Source of the DNA: Candidatus Omnitrophota bacterium | Lineage (GTDB): Bacteria; CAIJMQ01 | Reading direction: 5' to 3' | Assembly: GCA_018812925.1 (NCBI GenBank) | Contig: JAHJCU010000006.1 | Location: 1 to 20,950 of the forward strand | DNA: 20,950 bases | In this document: positions 883 through 7,871 of the stretch, piece by piece | Layout of the letters: each line of letters opens with the position of its first letter | Numbering within the stretch: the stretch's first letter is position 1 | Notes under the pieces: model-generated | What the model saw: the letters and a program-made list of their open reading frames with translations, nothing else | Databases searched by the model: none | Told to the model about the DNA's origin: nothing | Position numbers and translations under genes: made by a program

Positions 883-3690
883 ATGTGAATTGGCGACTAT
901 TGTAGCACATCTTGAGCAAAGTTTAGGGAATTCTTTCTGTTTATTTACCTCTTGACTGTATTTCCAGCATCTTGCGCATTTCTCTCCCTTTGCTTTTTTG
1001 ACTTCAATTTTTATTTCTTTTGCTTTGCTATCTTTTTCCAATTCCACATTTGAAACTATAAAGATAGTTGCCAAATCTTCTTTAGAAACATCAAGGGCTT
1101 CCATATGAGAATCTTTTATGTATAGAATGACTTCCGCTTCTAAGGAACTGCCTATTATTTCTTTTTGGCGCGCTTCTTCAAGTGCTTTCTGGACGTCTTC
1201 TCTCAACTTTAATATCTTTTCCCATTTTTGCTCTAATTTTTCGTCTATTTTTTGTTCGTTTGGCAAGTTTGTCAAAAATACGGATTTTTCTTCGAAATTA
1301 CAGTTCTGCCAGATTTCTTCGGCTGTAAAAGACATAAACGGACTAATAAGTTGGGTTAATGTTCTAAGAATAAAATGCATGACTGTTTGGGCCGAGCGTC
1401 TCCCAAGCGAATCCGCTGGCAGAATATATAACCTATCCTTAATTATATCTAAATAGGTTGAACTCATATCCACATTCGAAAACTGATAAATTGCCTGATA
1501 TGCCTTTATAAAATGGAAATTCTGATATGCCTCTTTGACTTCTTCCATAAGTATAAGACAGCGATTATACGCCCATCTGTCAATTTCCAACCATTCGGAT
1601 TGGCCAACAGCGTTTTGCGAATATTGGAAATCATATAAATTACCCAGCATAAATCTGGCTGTATTTCTAAGTTTTCTATATGCCTCAATACATCGTTTGA
1701 GTGTTTCTTCTCCGATTCTTATGTCGCTTCCCCAGTCCGAAGATATAGCCCACAATCTCAAAATATCTGCGCCTTGATTGTTAACTATAACCTGTGGGTT
1801 GGTAACATTACCTACGGATTTTGACATCTTTTTACCTTCACTATCTACTACAAATCCGTGTGTAAGGACTGCCTTGTATGGGGGTTTGTCGTATAAAGCC
1901 ACAGATGTAAGCAGTGATGTCTGAAACCAACCTCTATGCTGGTCACTTCCTTCCAAATATAAGTCTGCAGGCCAGTCTAAATTGCTCGCCCCGTTAGAAA
2001 TTTCATTTTTAATGGGTTTGGAATCTTTTAAGACCGCAATGTGAGAAATGCCGGAATCAAACCACACGTCAAGTATATCTTTATCTTTTTTAAAGCCCTG
2101 AACGCTTTTGCATTTCGGGCATGAAAAATCTTTTGGCAGGAACTTCTCAACCTTATATCCAAACCAGGCATCTGCTCCTTCTTTTTTAATAATATCGCTT
2201 ACATTTTCCATTAAACGGCTGTCAAGAATTTCCTTACCACATTTTTCGCAATAAACAACGGGTATTCCCACGCCCCACAATCTCTGGCGCGAAAGGCACC
2301 AGTCGGGGCGGATCTTTAACATTCCCTCTATTCTGTTTATGGAAACTTCTGGAGCCCACCGGACTTCCTTTAAGCTTTTTATAGCTTTTTGTCTTAGACT
2401 TTTTCTATCAACTCCGACGAACCACTGCTTGCATGCTCTAAAGATTACGGGTTTTTTGCATCTCCAACAATGAGGATAAGAATGTTCCAATTTATTGCTT
2501 TTTAAAAGCAGTTCTACTTTAACCAATAACTCTACAATGTAAGTGTTTGCTTGAAAAACGTGTTTTCCTTTTAGCTCGGGGACTTCATCAGTAAAAAGCC
2601 CTTTTTCATTTACAGGCGAGAAAATCGGCAATTTATATTTTATTCCTGTTAGATAGTCCTCCTGCCCGTGTCCGGGTGCTGTGTGAACACAGCCCGTGCC
2701 TTCTTCCAAACTAACATAATTGGCGTTTACTATTTTGCCTTTTTTGTCAAAAAGTGGATGATTATATTCCAATCCTTCCAATTCCCTACCTTTGTTTGTT
2801 TTTGTGATTTTGTAATCTGTAATTCCTAATTGCTCCATTACTGTTTTTACCAAATCCTTCGCTATAATCCAAGTCCCTGTCTTCTGTCCTCTGTCATCTG
2901 TCTTCTGAATGTCCACCCAAGCATATTCATAGTCAGGATGTAAAGCTACAGCCAAATTGGCAGGTATAGTCCACGGCGTTGTTGTCCAGATGATTATGAA
3001 TTTATCTTTTTGGGAAGATAGCGGAAATTTTACCCAGACGGAATTTGAAGTATGCGGTGCATATTCAACTTCCGCTTCGGCTAAAGCTGTCTCGCAGGAA
3101 ACGCACCAGTAAACAGGTTTTTTATCCTGATAAATATAGCCTTTCTCTGAGAGTTCTTTGAATACATCTATAATTTTGCTTTGATAATGGTAATCCATTG
3201 TGACATAAGGATTATCCCAATTAGCCATGATACCCAAACGTTTTAACTGGTTTTTTTGTATTTCCACATAGCTTTGAGCATATTCTCTTGCTTTTTTTCT
3301 GAATTCTAAGATGTCGAGCTCTTCTTTTTTATTAACTTTGAGTTTCTTGAATAGTTGCAGTTCAATGGGCAGTCCGTGACAATCCCAGCCGGGAGTAAAT
3401 GGCGTAGCGTAGCCTTCTAAAGACTTATATTTGATAACAATATCTTTGAGAACTTTATTTATAACATGCCCAAGATGAATATCTCCGTTTGCGTAAGGAG
3501 GTCCGTCATGCAGAATATATTTTTTCTTGCCTTTGGAAAGCATCTTTTCATAGATGTCGTTATCTTCCCAAAATTTGAGTGTAACAGGTTCTTTTTTAGG
3601 CAAATTTGCCTTCATCTCAAATTTGGTTTGGGGCAAATTTAAGGTATGAGAATAACTTTCTTCCTTAATATTATTAGTTTTATCATTCAT
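877..3690 (-). CDS. ileS: Isoleucyl-tRNA synthetase
   Basis: Class I cytoplasmic synthetase that charges tRNA-Ile with isoleucine and edits misactivated valine. The 937 residues contain the HIGH-type signature HLGH at about 72-75, the editing (CP1) domain with WTTTPWTIPANLAV and GTGCVHTAPGHG, the YLEGSDQHRGWF block, and KMSKS at about 620-624. An anticodon-binding domain follows, then a C-terminal zinc finger with cysteines near 905, 908, 925 and 928. This is the bacterial zinc-finger form. Two in-frame insertions look like mobile repeats: a heptamer array encoding roughly QKTDDRGQKTGT in the editing domain, and a short palindrome encoding PIKNEISNGA just before PADLYLEG. The stop codon lies in a third repeat. 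A promoter-like sequence sits about 28 bp upstream. Confidence 0.98.
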   Translation of the reverse strand: MNDKTNNIKEESYSHTLNLPQTKFEMKANLPKKEPVTLKFWEDNDIYEKMLSKGKKKYILHDGPPYANGDIHLGHVINKVLKDIVIKYKSLEGYATPFTPGWDCHGLPIELQLFKKLKVNKKEELDILEFRKKAREYAQSYVEIQKNQLKRLGIMANWDNPYVTMDYHYQSKIIDVFKELSEKGYIYQDKKPVYWCVSCETALAEAEVEYAPHTSNSVWVKFPLSSQKDKFIIIWTTTPWTIPANLAVALHPDYEYAWVDIQKTDDRGQKTGTWIIAKDLVKTVMEQLGITDYKITKTNKGRELEGLEYNHPLFDKKGKIVNANYVSLEEGTGCVHTAPGHGQEDYLTGIKYKLPIFSPVNEKGLFTDEVPELKGKHVFQANTYIVELLVKVELLLKSNKLEHSYPHCWRCKKPVIFRACKQWFVGVDRKSLRQKAIKSLKEVRWAPEVSINRIEGMLKIRPDWCLSRQRLWGVGIPVVYCEKCGKEILDSRLMENVSDIIKKEGADAWFGYKVEKFLPKDFSCPKCKSVQGFKKDKDILDVWFDSGISHIAVLKDSKPIKNEISNGASNLDWPADLYLEGSDQHRGWFQTSLLTSVALYDKPPYKAVLTHGFVVDSEGKKMSKSVGNVTNPQVIVNNQGADILRLWAISSDWGSDIRIGEETLKRCIEAYRKLRNTARFMLGNLYDFQYSQNAVGQSEWLEIDRWAYNRCLILMEEVKEAYQNFHFIKAYQAIYQFSNVDMSSTYLDIIKDRLYILPADSLGRRSAQTVMHFILRTLTQLISPFMSFTAEEIWQNCNFEEKSVFLTNLPNEQKIDEKLEQKWEKILKLREDVQKALEEARQKEIIGSSLEAEVILYIKDSHMEALDVSKEDLATIFIVSNVELEKDSKAKEIKIEVKKAKGEKCARCWKYSQEVNKQKEFPKLCSRCATIVANSHR
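1989..2016. repeat. Short palindromic element inserted in frame in ileS
   Basis: CCCGTTAGAAAT (1990-2001) faces ATTTTTAATGGG (2005-2016); the arms are complementary at 10 of 12 positions. It adds about ten residues (PIKNEISNGA) between the DSG and PADLYLEG motifs of IleRS. From memory of the E. coli enzyme, DSG and ADMYLEG are separated by 17 residues; here the gap is 27. The left arm matches the truA element's arm over CCCGTTAGAAA. Confidence 0.7.
2874..2908. repeat. Five-unit heptamer tandem array inserted in frame in ileS
   Basis: Read on the plus strand the units are TCCCTGT, CTTCTGT, CCTCTGT, CATCTGT and CTTCTGA, i.e. CAGANGA heptamers on the coding strand. They encode hydrophilic residues (QKTDDRGQKTG) at a place in the editing domain where other IleRS proteins have a short turn. 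The sharp 7-bp period, which is not a multiple of three, is unlike coding sequence and indicates an inserted repeat. Confidence 0.75.
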
Positions 3691-5512: not shown

Positions 5513-6331
5513 ATGCCCAATTACAAACTCACAATTGAATACGAAGGGACCAATTATCACGGTTGGCAAAGGCAAAAGACGAAGGTTACCGTTCAGGAAA
5601 CAATAGAAAGAACGCTCGAAAAAATCTTCAAAGAAAAAATCACTCTAATAGGGCAGGGGAGGATTGATGCCGGAGCGCACGCTTTGGGTCAGGTTGCCAA
5701 TTTTAAAACTAGTCCCGTTAGAAACAGATCGCCATTTGGCGACCGTACGGAAATGCCGGAGGCAATTCCTGTTTCTAACGGGATAAACCCTTTACATTTG
5801 AAAAAAGCGTTAAACAGCATGCTTCCATTAGATATAAGGATTAACGATGCCCAAATAGCAGACGACAAATTCCACTCCCGATATCGGGCAAAGATGAGAC
5901 ATTACAAATATCTGGTTTATAACGATGAAAAAACAGTTTGGTTAAGAAATCTTGCCTATTATGAACCTTATAAATTAAATATTAAAAAAATGAACAAGGC
6001 GGCGAAATATCTAATCGGCAAACACGACTTTTCACCTTTCCAATCAAGCGGAAGCCCCGCCAAAACCCCCGTAAAAACCATAAAACAAATAAAAATATCC
6101 AAAGAAAACTTTTTCTTTTTTGCGGGCAGCGATTTTCCTGTTATAAGATTTGATATAAAAGCAGACGCATTCCTTTATAAAATGGTGCGCAACATAATCG
6201 GGGCTTTGTTTGAAGTCGGCAGAGGTAAAATTCAACCCGCAGAAATTAAAGATATTATAAATAAAAAAGAAAAACGTAAAGGGCAGGTTGTCCCTGCTTG
6301 TGGATTGTATCTAATGCAAGTAAAATACTAA
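5513..6331 (+). CDS. truA: tRNA pseudouridine(38-40) synthase TruA, with a palindromic-element insertion
   Basis: Converts uridines 38-40 in the anticodon arm of tRNAs to pseudouridine. The ATG at 5513 gives the family N-terminus (PNYKLTIEYEGTNYHGWQRQ); an ATG at 5432 in the same frame would add 27 residues unlike the family and is rejected. The catalytic aspartate is Asp52 in GRIDAGAHALGQ (family GRTDAGVHA). The conserved HDFSPFQ and FLYKMVRNIIGAL blocks follow, and the end GLYLMQVKY is normal. Residues ~67-91 are an extra loop encoded by a 71-bp palindrome; without it the 272 residues would be a normal ~247. The loop follows the GQVANF strand and the reading frame is kept, so the enzyme is probably active, since nothing else in it is broken. 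Confidence 0.95.
   Translation: MPNYKLTIEYEGTNYHGWQRQKTKVTVQETIERTLEKIFKEKITLIGQGRIDAGAHALGQVANFKTSPVRNRSPFGDRTEMPEAIPVSNGINPLHLKKALNSMLPLDIRINDAQIADDKFHSRYRAKMRHYKYLVYNDEKTVWLRNLAYYEPYKLNIKKMNKAAKYLIGKHDFSPFQSSGSPAKTPVKTIKQIKISKENFFFFAGSDFPVIRFDIKADAFLYKMVRNIIGALFEVGRGKIQPAEIKDIINKKEKRKGQVVPACGLYLMQVKY
5713..5783. repeat. 71-bp palindromic element inserted in frame in truA
   Basis: TCCCGTTAGAAACAG (5713-5727) is perfectly inverted as CTGTTTCTAACGGGA (5769-5783): a 15-bp stem. Inside are two further hairpins, TCGCC-ATTT-GGCGA at 5729-5742 and TGCC-GGA-GGCA at 5755-5765, so the RNA or single-stranded DNA could form a three-stem cloverleaf. It encodes about 24 residues rich in Pro, Arg, Ser and Asn that TruA proteins normally lack, and it causes no frameshift or stop. 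Confidence 0.9.
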
Positions 6332-6913: not shown

Positions 6914-7097
6914 GTAGAAAACTATGGAACATTCTGATTTTGTTCACTCCGTTGGAATAATGCCTCAACTCGTTACAAATTGCTATGGGCATTATCTTCA
7001 CTATTTAGATAAGTTCAGAGCAAGGCGCGGGGTTTCCTACGGGGTTCATTTACATACTCATACCGGTTATTCGCTTCTGGACGGGATGTGCAGGATT
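6914..7097 (+). repeat. Left copy of the direct repeat: duplicated dnaE 5' end, interrupted
   Basis: This stretch, minus the 102-bp insertion within it, is an 82-bp copy of 7789-7871: GTAG, a few bases, then AACTATGGAACATTCTG through the dnaE codons up to GGATT. After the ATG there is a single substitution (C7091 versus T7865); upstream of it there is one substitution and one single-base gap that weakens the Shine-Dalgarno. The copies flank the toxin-antitoxin pair. Confidence 0.9.
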
Positions 7098-7124
7098 TCA
7101 ATAAAACAAAAAGAACTATATTGA
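6924..7124 (+). pseudogene. Truncated 5' fragment of dnaE carrying a 102-bp insertion
   Basis: The open frame of 66 codons starts MEHSDFVH and resumes HLHTHTGYSLLDGMCRIS, the first residues of the intact DnaE at 7800, then diverges into IKQKELY and stops. The copy therefore holds only ~24 DnaE codons and cannot make a polymerase. A 102-bp in-frame insertion splits it after codon 8. It lacks the GGAG ribosome binding site of the intact copy. The most likely origin is duplication of the dnaE start when the toxin-antitoxin pair entered; translation of the fragment, if any, would give a short meaningless peptide. Confidence 0.85.
6947..7048. mobile_element. 102-bp palindromic (MITE-like) insertion with imperfect terminal inverted repeats and a GTTCA direct repeat
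   Basis: Compared with intact dnaE, 102 bp are inserted after GTTCA at 6942-6946, and GTTCA recurs at 7044-7048, as expected for a target-site duplication. The ends CTCCGTTGGAA (6947-6957) and TTCCTACGGGG (7034-7044) are inverted at 9 of 11 positions. Inside, ATAATGCC (6957-6964) is perfectly inverted as GGCATTAT (6988-6995). The length is a multiple of three and the frame stays open. The termini resemble the CCCGTTAGAAA arms of the truA element. There is no transposase, so it would have to be moved by something elsewhere. Confidence 0.75.
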
Positions 7125-7150
7125 CGAAACGATTTAATTTGTGTTATAAT
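7121..7150 (+). promoter_or_regulatory. Sigma-70 promoter of the toxin-antitoxin pair (and probably dnaE)
   Basis: TTGACG (7121-7126) and TATAAT (7145-7150) are 18 bp apart. The -10 ends 19 bp before the antitoxin ATG, and the Shine-Dalgarno lies between. It is the best-scoring promoter by eye in the window. Ribbon-helix-helix antitoxins commonly repress their own promoter; I see no convincing operator palindrome, so autoregulation is inference. Confidence 0.75.
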
Positions 7151-7157
7151 GTCTTAT

Positions 7158-7162
7158 GGAGG
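7158..7162 (+). promoter_or_regulatory. Shine-Dalgarno GGAGG that sets the antitoxin start at 7170
   Basis: GGAGG is followed by seven bases and ATG at 7170. An earlier in-frame ATG at 7149 overlaps the -10 box and would place this site inside the coding sequence, so it is not the start. Confidence 0.8.
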
Positions 7163-7169
7163 TAAGACT

Positions 7170-7382
7170 ATGAGTGACACTATTACAATTAGGTTGTCGG
7201 AAAAAGAGAGAAGTAAATTGGAATCTACAAGCAAAAAAACCAGCTTGACTGTAAGTCAGTTGGTTCGTGAAGCTGTTCGGCGTTACCTTGCTGTAGAGCG
7301 TTTCAGAGAACTGAGGGCGGAAACTATTTCTTATGCAGAAAGAGCAGGTTTTTTTACAGATGAGGATATTTTAGAGAAATAA
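7170..7382 (+). CDS. Ribbon-helix-helix (CopG-type) antitoxin
   Basis: A 70-residue DNA-binding protein that should neutralise the adjacent PIN toxin and repress the operon. The N-terminal strand MSDTITIRLSEKERSKLE followed by two helices ending SQLVREAVRRYLA is the ribbon-helix-helix pattern, with alternating Thr/Arg contact residues in the strand. The C-terminal 30 residues (acidic, ending FFTDEDILEK) are the usual toxin-binding tail. Its own promoter and GGAGG site precede it, and the toxin begins two bases after its stop. The pair lies between two copies of the dnaE 5' end, so it is probably acquired. The family is secure by pattern and by partner; specificity cannot be assigned. Confidence 0.88.
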   Translation: MSDTITIRLSEKERSKLESTSKKTSLTVSQLVREAVRRYLAVERFRELRAETISYAERAGFFTDEDILEK

Positions 7383-7384
7383 CA

Positions 7385-7792
7385 ATGAAGATTGTCTTGG
7401 ATTCAAATGTAATCGTTTCTGCTTTTGGTACTCAAGGATTATGCTCAAAGGTTTTTACGCATTGTCTTTTTGAACACGAGATTGTAATCAGCGAATTCAT
7501 AATTGAAGAAGTAGTTAAAACTCTGGAAGAAAAATTTAAGATACCTAAACAAAAGACAAAAGAGCATAGACAATTCTTAATGGAGGAGACTAAAGTAGTA
7601 ATTCCTATGAATGTCCCAACAGATGTTTGCAAAGACCCTAAAGATTTGAAAGTTCTTGGGACAGCATGGGCAGATAAATCGGATATTATAATAACAGGCG
7701 ATAAACACTTGCTTTCATTAAAGGAGTTCAAGGGTGTTAGTATTTTAGGTGTGCGTGAATTCTGGGAGAAAAGCAGAAAATTAGAGAAGTAG
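7385..7792 (+). CDS. PIN-domain toxin (putative endoribonuclease, COG1569-like)
   Basis: A 135-residue PIN-domain protein, expected to be a Mg2+-dependent ribonuclease held inactive by the upstream antitoxin. The acidic residues are in place: Asp6 in IVLDSNVIVSA, Glu41/Glu42 after SEFII, and Asp100 and Asp106 in the ADKSDIIITGDKHLL stretch. All catalytic positions look intact, so it is probably active. It is the second gene of a two-gene operon. Its TAG stop (7790-7792) overlaps AGGAG (7791-7795), the Shine-Dalgarno of dnaE, so ribosomes finishing the toxin may feed dnaE. RNA target unknown. VapC is the best-known relative but this subgroup is distinct, so no symbol is given. Confidence 0.87.
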   Translation: MKIVLDSNVIVSAFGTQGLCSKVFTHCLFEHEIVISEFIIEEVVKTLEEKFKIPKQKTKEHRQFLMEETKVVIPMNVPTDVCKDPKDLKVLGTAWADKSDIIITGDKHLLSLKEFKGVSILGVREFWEKSRKLEK

Positions 7793-7871
7793 GAGAACTA
7801 TGGAACATTCTGATTTTGTTCATTTACATACTCATACCGGTTATTCGCTTCTGGACGGGATGTGTAGGATT
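7789..7871 (+). repeat. Right copy of the direct repeat (intact dnaE start)
   Basis: This is the uninterrupted 83-bp partner of 6914-7097. It starts with GTAG shared with the toxin stop, contains the Shine-Dalgarno AGGAG, the dnaE ATG and the first 24 codons, and ends at GGATT. Identity with the left copy stops abruptly beyond this point. Confidence 0.9.

Follow-up and report, generated by a model that had tools for sequence, protein, structure and literature searches.

The truA gene at positions 5513 to 6331 (forward strand) of a 20,950-nucleotide stretch of a Candidatus Omnitrophota genome, here called the window, encodes a tRNA pseudouridine(38-40) synthase (NCBIfam TIGR00071, Pfam PF01416) whose coding sequence is interrupted, in frame, by a palindromic DNA element. 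What moves such coding palindromes, and how they enter essential genes, has been a puzzle since they were found in Rickettsia. We favor the reading that the truA insert is a non-autonomous, protein-coding derivative of a mini-transposon with a single gene, for a GIY-YIG nuclease, and we give this a probability of roughly 0.7. The analysis was wholly computational, and the genome of the window, designated G000, is a draft; G001 and G002 are congeners, G003 belongs to the same family, and G004 belongs to the same class.

The element occupies 71 nt (5713 to 5783), begins with T and ends with A, and is delimited by its sequence, its fold, and homologous copies. Its left arm, TCCCGTTAGAAACAG (5713 to 5727, forward strand), and right arm, CTGTTTCTAACGGGA (5769 to 5783), are exact reverse complements of each other, which bears out the perfect 15-bp inverted repeat described in a first-pass annotation of this DNA. 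Homologous copies define two inner forward-strand hairpins, one at 5727 to 5744 (5727 to 5733 paired with 5738 to 5744) and one at 5749 to 5769 (5749 to 5757 paired with 5761 to 5769). The RNA of 5708 to 5788 folds with −39.5 kcal/mol (z = −7.1), and none of 200 dinucleotide shuffles folded as well. The two smaller hairpins, also part of the first description, recur in 11 copies of a related 69-nt subfamily (PVRNRSPLGDRTEMPEALPISNG) with a 13-bp outer stem. The three-stem structure is 93% paired across those copies, compared with 33 to 46% when the partners are slid, and six pairs carry compensatory changes versus 3.3 after shuffling, including a double change from G-C to A-T in inner hairpin 1 in four copies. 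The cloverleaf-like fold is therefore kept, as DNA or RNA, while the element codes for protein.

The host gene is otherwise intact, as had been thought, with its product scoring 198 bits against TIGR00071 (cutoff, 142.9). The element is translated as the peptide PVRNRSPFGDRTEMPEAIPVSNG. Read-through in frame thus stands, but the figure of about 24 extra residues fits less exactly, with 75 nt, or 25 codons, expected as the net insert (71 nt plus a 4-bp target duplication) and an excess of only 21 to 23 residues over empty orthologues in the alignment. The loop is missing from the TruA proteins of G002, G003, and G004 in an orthologue alignment, giving the empty site in close relatives that the annotation had proposed to look for. 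The truA copy is old and lacks a recognizable target duplication, which has decayed to CTAG on the left and TAAA on the right. Because the structural model of TruA is of low confidence (pLDDT 63.5), the position of the loop rests mainly on the alignment; the model shows insert residues 70 to 90 as structureless between a strand (60 to 67) and a helix (93 to 103), as a tolerated loop would be. With the loop placed after the strand that follows the catalytic-Asp region and before the helix that comes next, the enzyme has probably remained functional.

The palindrome family is dispersed and mobile. The first-pass annotation had staked its view of a small mobile element on further copies in the genome, and pattern searches combined with individual stretches of genome found 25 exact arm cores (CCCGTTAGAAA) in G000 versus 1 for a reversed control, or 119 versus 59 with one mismatch allowed. 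A scan of genome contigs gave at least 114 DNA stretches with paired arms, from Omnitrophota, Patescibacteria, Planctomycetota, Elusimicrobia, Nitrospirota, deltaproteobacterial, and WOR-3 genomes. Copies have the boundaries Y-CCCGTTAGA..TCTAACGGG-R, with a 4-bp target duplication of consensus YNNR on either side. At 128 sites, the bases just outside the left and right cores are complementary (C-G at 89, T-A at 31), and the same 4 bp stand on both sides at 76, with 9.2 expected from shuffling. The target grows by the arm-to-arm length plus 6 nt per element, and lengths divisible by three therefore keep the frame. Empty sites were found in related genomes for at least eight host genes. Three of these show exact 25-codon insertions relative to empty orthologues: pyrD (empty, VD/IPII; filled, VD[PVRN..ISNG]VDMPII), a glycosyltransferase gene (junction FPN/TKFLL), and an addB-like nuclease gene (FK/VKMDK). 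The others are mutL, pepP, nadA, truA, and mnmG. Elements also nest and decay in frame, as in the thymidylate-synthase-like gene of G001 and in nadA of G001, where decay proceeded by in-frame changes. In the deltaproteobacterial genome G069 (L189 to L199), 145 arm cores were counted, with elements of 57 to 180 bp and multiply nested palindromes.

Several candidates for larger or different elements were set aside. Arm pairs 0.6 to 5 kb apart in 8-kb loci are not single elements and show no consistent target duplication, and a 2.2-kb candidate in a deltaproteobacterium is in fact a set of independent small nested elements. The likeness of GTTAGAA to integron attC sites was dropped, since the core appears to be oriented the opposite way and target duplications are present.

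A candidate parent came from intergenic copies of about 100 to 155 nt with intact duplications, which hold fragments of a GIY-YIG protein such as FYTYVLRSEKDGRRYTGITENL; these were first recognized by eye and then followed by PF01541 searches. Full-length elements are about 280 bp and contain a single gene, for an 86-residue GIY-YIG nuclease, between the same arms. Those of the congener G002 (TAAA on both sides) and of a Terrybacteria genome measure 278 nt arm to arm, and the right arm itself encodes the C terminus of the protein (..RFLSLTG). The full-length relative matches PF01541 with an E value of 1.5e-16 and has the conserved Y, YxG, R, and E columns, placing it in the GIY-YIG superfamily. 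Its AlphaFold model (pLDDT 92.5) is nearest, among solved folds, to UPF0213 BH0048 and Slx1. Slx1 is a nuclease of branched DNA, and a hairpin substrate would fit with this.

GIY-YIG loci were surveyed in 116 genomes of the phylum of genome G067 and in 193 of the phylum of genome G060 (Omnitrophica). Both arms were present at 24 of 25 distinct loci whose protein is at least 60% identical to that of G002, and at none of 26 below 50%; such arm scores are rarely attained by a null of mismatched flanks (99th percentile, 14). The arms lie 273 to 289 nt apart at 23 of the 24 two-arm loci and 334 nt apart at the other, and 10 of the 24 have a target duplication. In the protein tree, one fork with moderate support holds 29 rows, 28 of them arm-bearing, and the label changes 5 times overall versus 25 after shuffling. 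Among the 193 Omnitrophica genomes, small palindromes occur in 15 of the 19 that have an arm-bearing GIY-YIG gene and in 24 of the other 174 (Fisher P = 7e-9, a value inflated by the phylogenetic relatedness of the genomes). In no genome were two near-identical full-length elements seen, and a scan of viral contigs for 278-nt elements gave two matches, both unrelated and lacking a GIY-YIG gene.

The small palindromes could instead be miniature inverted-repeat transposable elements (MITEs) moved by an unlinked transposase, of the DDE type or another, with the GIY-YIG gene as a passenger or homing-endonuclease-like cargo. Target duplications of 4 bp are typical of some DDE insertion sequences. 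Moreover, G000 has many small copies and no detected arm-bearing GIY-YIG gene, and G060 has 79 palindromes and no close GIY-YIG match, so mobility in those genomes would be past or driven from elsewhere. However, a 280-bp element leaves no room for another gene, the linkage of gene to arms is nearly complete and the protein clade tracks the arm sequence, and GIY-YIG gene and palindromes co-occur. A search for two Pfam families in 12 genomes did not find DDE_Tnp_1 in G000 to G002 or Y1_Tnp in G000; no DDE_Tnp_1 locus examined ended in these arms, and no sampled Y1 locus was bounded by them. We consider an unlinked transposase unlikely, though it is the strongest of the alternatives.

From these sequence relationships, we infer that the GIY-YIG nuclease itself carries out transposition. 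The nuclease would recognize the arms, perhaps as extruded hairpins, and cut at their base; it would cut targets with a 4-nt stagger, the repair of which would give the target duplication. Small palindromes, some with a leftover nuclease fragment, would be moved in trans. In gene-packed genomes, out-of-frame insertions in genes would be purged while in-frame copies persist, and the survivors would be read as polar, probably flexible surface loops.

A broader proposal, to which we lean with rather less assurance than to the derivation of the truA insert, is that a new class of inverted-repeat transposons has GIY-YIG nucleases as its transposases. The entire autonomous element would be about 280 bp, and the class would occur across bacterial phyla and give rise to protein-coding palindromes. 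Sister clades whose arms differ (CCCCGTGAAAT, ACAAATTCGAAT, and the TCATTGCGAGG..CGAAGCAATC repeat, which is widespread) would make this a superfamily, possibly including parentless palindromic repeats of other bacteria. To our knowledge, the GIY-YIG fold is not known as a transposase and the parent element fits no known transposon class. If the GIY-YIG protein is the transposase, the parent would be categorically new, and if it moves the element, this would be among the smallest of autonomous elements, with a nuclease fold new to that role.

Other GIY-YIG genes also lie between repeats. Those at L301, L302, and L287 belong to another clade and have the widespread TGTCATTGCGAGG..CGAAGCAATCTC repeat at their borders, which suggests a link between a GIY-YIG element and this common bacterial repeat as well. 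More distant genes at L291, L300, L297, L335, and L319 have the terminal repeats CCCCGTGAAATA, ACAAATTCGAAT, CCCCGCCCTTCCT, CCAGGTAGTGAAAATTCGAC, and ACCCTGTTAAATA, with exact 4-bp duplications at two of the five loci. At L306 (contig C28 of G067), a short CACGTTAGAAAATATTATTTTCTAACGTG palindrome interrupts a GIY-YIG element, a nesting of family members.

Inside protein-coding genes, the elements are strikingly uniform. Intact pairs within conserved genes of G000, G001, and G002 read PVRN..(I/V)SNG, and their hosts are truA, mutL, gatB, pyrD, a PepQ/Xaa-Pro peptidase gene, and nadA. The 69-nt subfamily was found in lipB, an Ogg-type N-glycosylase/DNA lyase gene, mnmG, a thymidylate-synthase-like gene (its best profile match is below the family cutoff), a glycosyltransferase gene, and the AddB-like nuclease gene, always in one orientation and frame, and the Ogg-type site is identical in two species. 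Copy L252 of this subfamily is flanked by short open reading frames (ORFs) only. A related 63-nt element lies in a gene for a MinD/Mrp-like ATPase with ferredoxin motifs. Of the six frames of the pyrD copy, +0 and −1 are open, and genes use only +0.

Counting elements with at least 75 codons of ORF on each side, 26 are spanned by an ORF, all in frame and without stops, 23 in the PVRN frame and 3 in the PLE..FLT frame; the third frame has a stop within the arm. Five more elements have a long ORF on either side, the two ORFs not being continuous with each other. In the genes of the window, the target occurs by codon position at about 381:282:361 for the PVRN, PLE, and stop frames, so unselected insertion would predict about 57 to 43 instead of 23 to 3. 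Lengths divisible by three account for 76 of 119 (P about 1e-11); the P values for frame and length are overstated, as the sequences are related. These biases show that the places and forms in which copies survive are under strong selection. The suggestion that the element was selected to be tolerated inside proteins holds to that extent; the biases may reflect evolution of the element toward tolerance or a purifying filter on insertions.

The same counts bear on whether the hairpin is translated at all. Ribosomes might bypass it, as has been proposed for the hop/byp elements of some yeast mitochondria, or it might be removed from the RNA or the protein. The strong mRNA hairpin and the structureless, low-confidence peptide of the TruA model would suit such a mechanism, which would require no open frame; yet all 26 ORF-spanning elements are open, overwhelmingly in one frame, lengths are biased to multiples of three, older copies such as that in nadA of G001 decay in frame, and an Rfam scan of the window, introns included, gave no match. 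We therefore hold an untranslated hairpin to be highly improbable.

Some host sites have further features. In gatB of G001 (L170), a different palindrome, GCAAAAGGGGACGGTTCTC..GAGAACCGTCCCCTTTTGC, is inserted in frame in the same loop as the PVRN element of G002 gatB, making this loop a hotspot at which unrelated palindromes insert. In L030 (G000 C11:370213) and L036 (G002), the element extends over the hisF start; it contains the start codon, and its arm is read in the other frame (..KFLTGLAKRIIPC). At the starts of pilin-like genes (L069 and L087), elements read ..FLTGFTLIELL and ..FLTGYTLMELL, and part of the prepilin leader may come from the arm.

Rickettsia palindromic elements (RPEs) are mobile palindromes of about 150 bp that lie in frame within many essential genes and form families with conserved peptides (PMC10969869). 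The present family is likewise short palindromic mobile DNA in frame within unrelated protein genes, but it differs in sequence and peptide, is shorter, spans many phyla, duplicates 4 bp of its target, and has a candidate for an autonomous parent. We know of no autonomous parent of RPEs. Direct homology with RPEs would explain the shared behavior of palindromes that enter many essential genes in frame (PMC10969869), and the reported RPE size of about 150 bp speaks against it (PMC10969869). The truA loop is absent from relatives and the arms recur through the genome, so the first-pass view of a small mobile element like RPEs but different in sequence is upheld. NCBIfam includes RPE domains, and four insert peptides gave no NCBIfam match at E values up to 10, a weak test with queries so short; the likeness thus holds as analogy rather than membership, and common descent has only a very slight chance of being correct. 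The insert might have been an ordinary TruA loop of this lineage or an inverted repeat due to chance, and loop insertions are common in proteins, but this is refuted by empty orthologues, target duplications, and the presence of the same 69-nt sequence in three congeneric genomes, where at least nine unrelated genes hold it. The truA insert is a protein-coding MITE with RPE-like behavior.

Like the bacterial MITEs Correia, RUP, and Chunjie, these elements are non-autonomous, with terminal inverted repeats and a target duplication, the latter found at the family level and in the dnaE pair of the window and decayed in the truA copy, and they are internal-deletion derivatives of a larger element. 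They carry no transposase gene of their own and share their ends with the 280-bp GIY-YIG elements, a presumably autonomous parent. The named MITEs have DDE insertion-sequence or unknown parents and are mostly intergenic (PMC10969869), whereas this family has a coding subfamily and ends that match a GIY-YIG-only element. The nuclease shares its fold and conserved motifs with GIY-YIG homing endonucleases and UPF0213/YhbQ-like proteins, with UPF0213 BH0048 as the nearest solved structure. Homing endonucleases act at one target site and do not recognize their own element (PMC1564403); in contrast, inverted repeats enclose this gene, which occurs at many unrelated sites marked by target duplications. 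A 2024 study described GIY-YIG-encoding inserts in rRNA genes of CPR bacteria that had no intron match and seemed to be outside homing (PMC11270868). Transposing elements would behave in this way, and we take the inserts as an independent hint; the main text of that study does not mention inverted repeats (PMC11270868). Small dispersed palindromes are also typical of REP elements with their RAYT (Y1) proteins, but no Y1 gene was detected in G000 and REPs are mainly extragenic. REPs are not known to make a target duplication. The open-access literature that we searched yielded no earlier account of this coding palindrome family or of GIY-YIG inverted-repeat transposons. With its clear target duplications, its empty sites, and a candidate parent that encodes a nuclease, the family makes both questions about coding palindromes testable. 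The family accounts for a group of unusual insertions in conserved proteins of bacteria known from metagenomes, and it offers a natural experiment on the gain of new protein loops.

The window holds two more members of the family. A decayed, 27-nt minimal palindrome, identified from its sequence and orthologues, lies in frame in ileS (1990 to 2016, reverse strand) and is read as PIKNEISNG; it is missing from G003 and present in G001. A divergent 98-nt element (6947 to 7044, forward strand) lies in frame in a 5′ relic of dnaE, flanked by the duplication TTCA at 6943 to 6946 and 7045 to 7048. Its empty site is the intact dnaE copy at 7793, with whose start the joined flanks of the relic agree at 77 of 80 positions, and the insert of 98 + 4 = 102 nt keeps the frame. 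The 5′ end of dnaE is duplicated within 6917 to 7871, the relic with its palindromic insert occupying 6923 to 7110. An ORF resembling a ribbon-helix-helix antitoxin (from about 7170) and a PIN-domain toxin-like gene (7385 to 7792), both family names assigned by eye, follow the relic and precede intact dnaE, so that the region looks like the insertion of a toxin-antitoxin cassette with the start of the gene regenerated.
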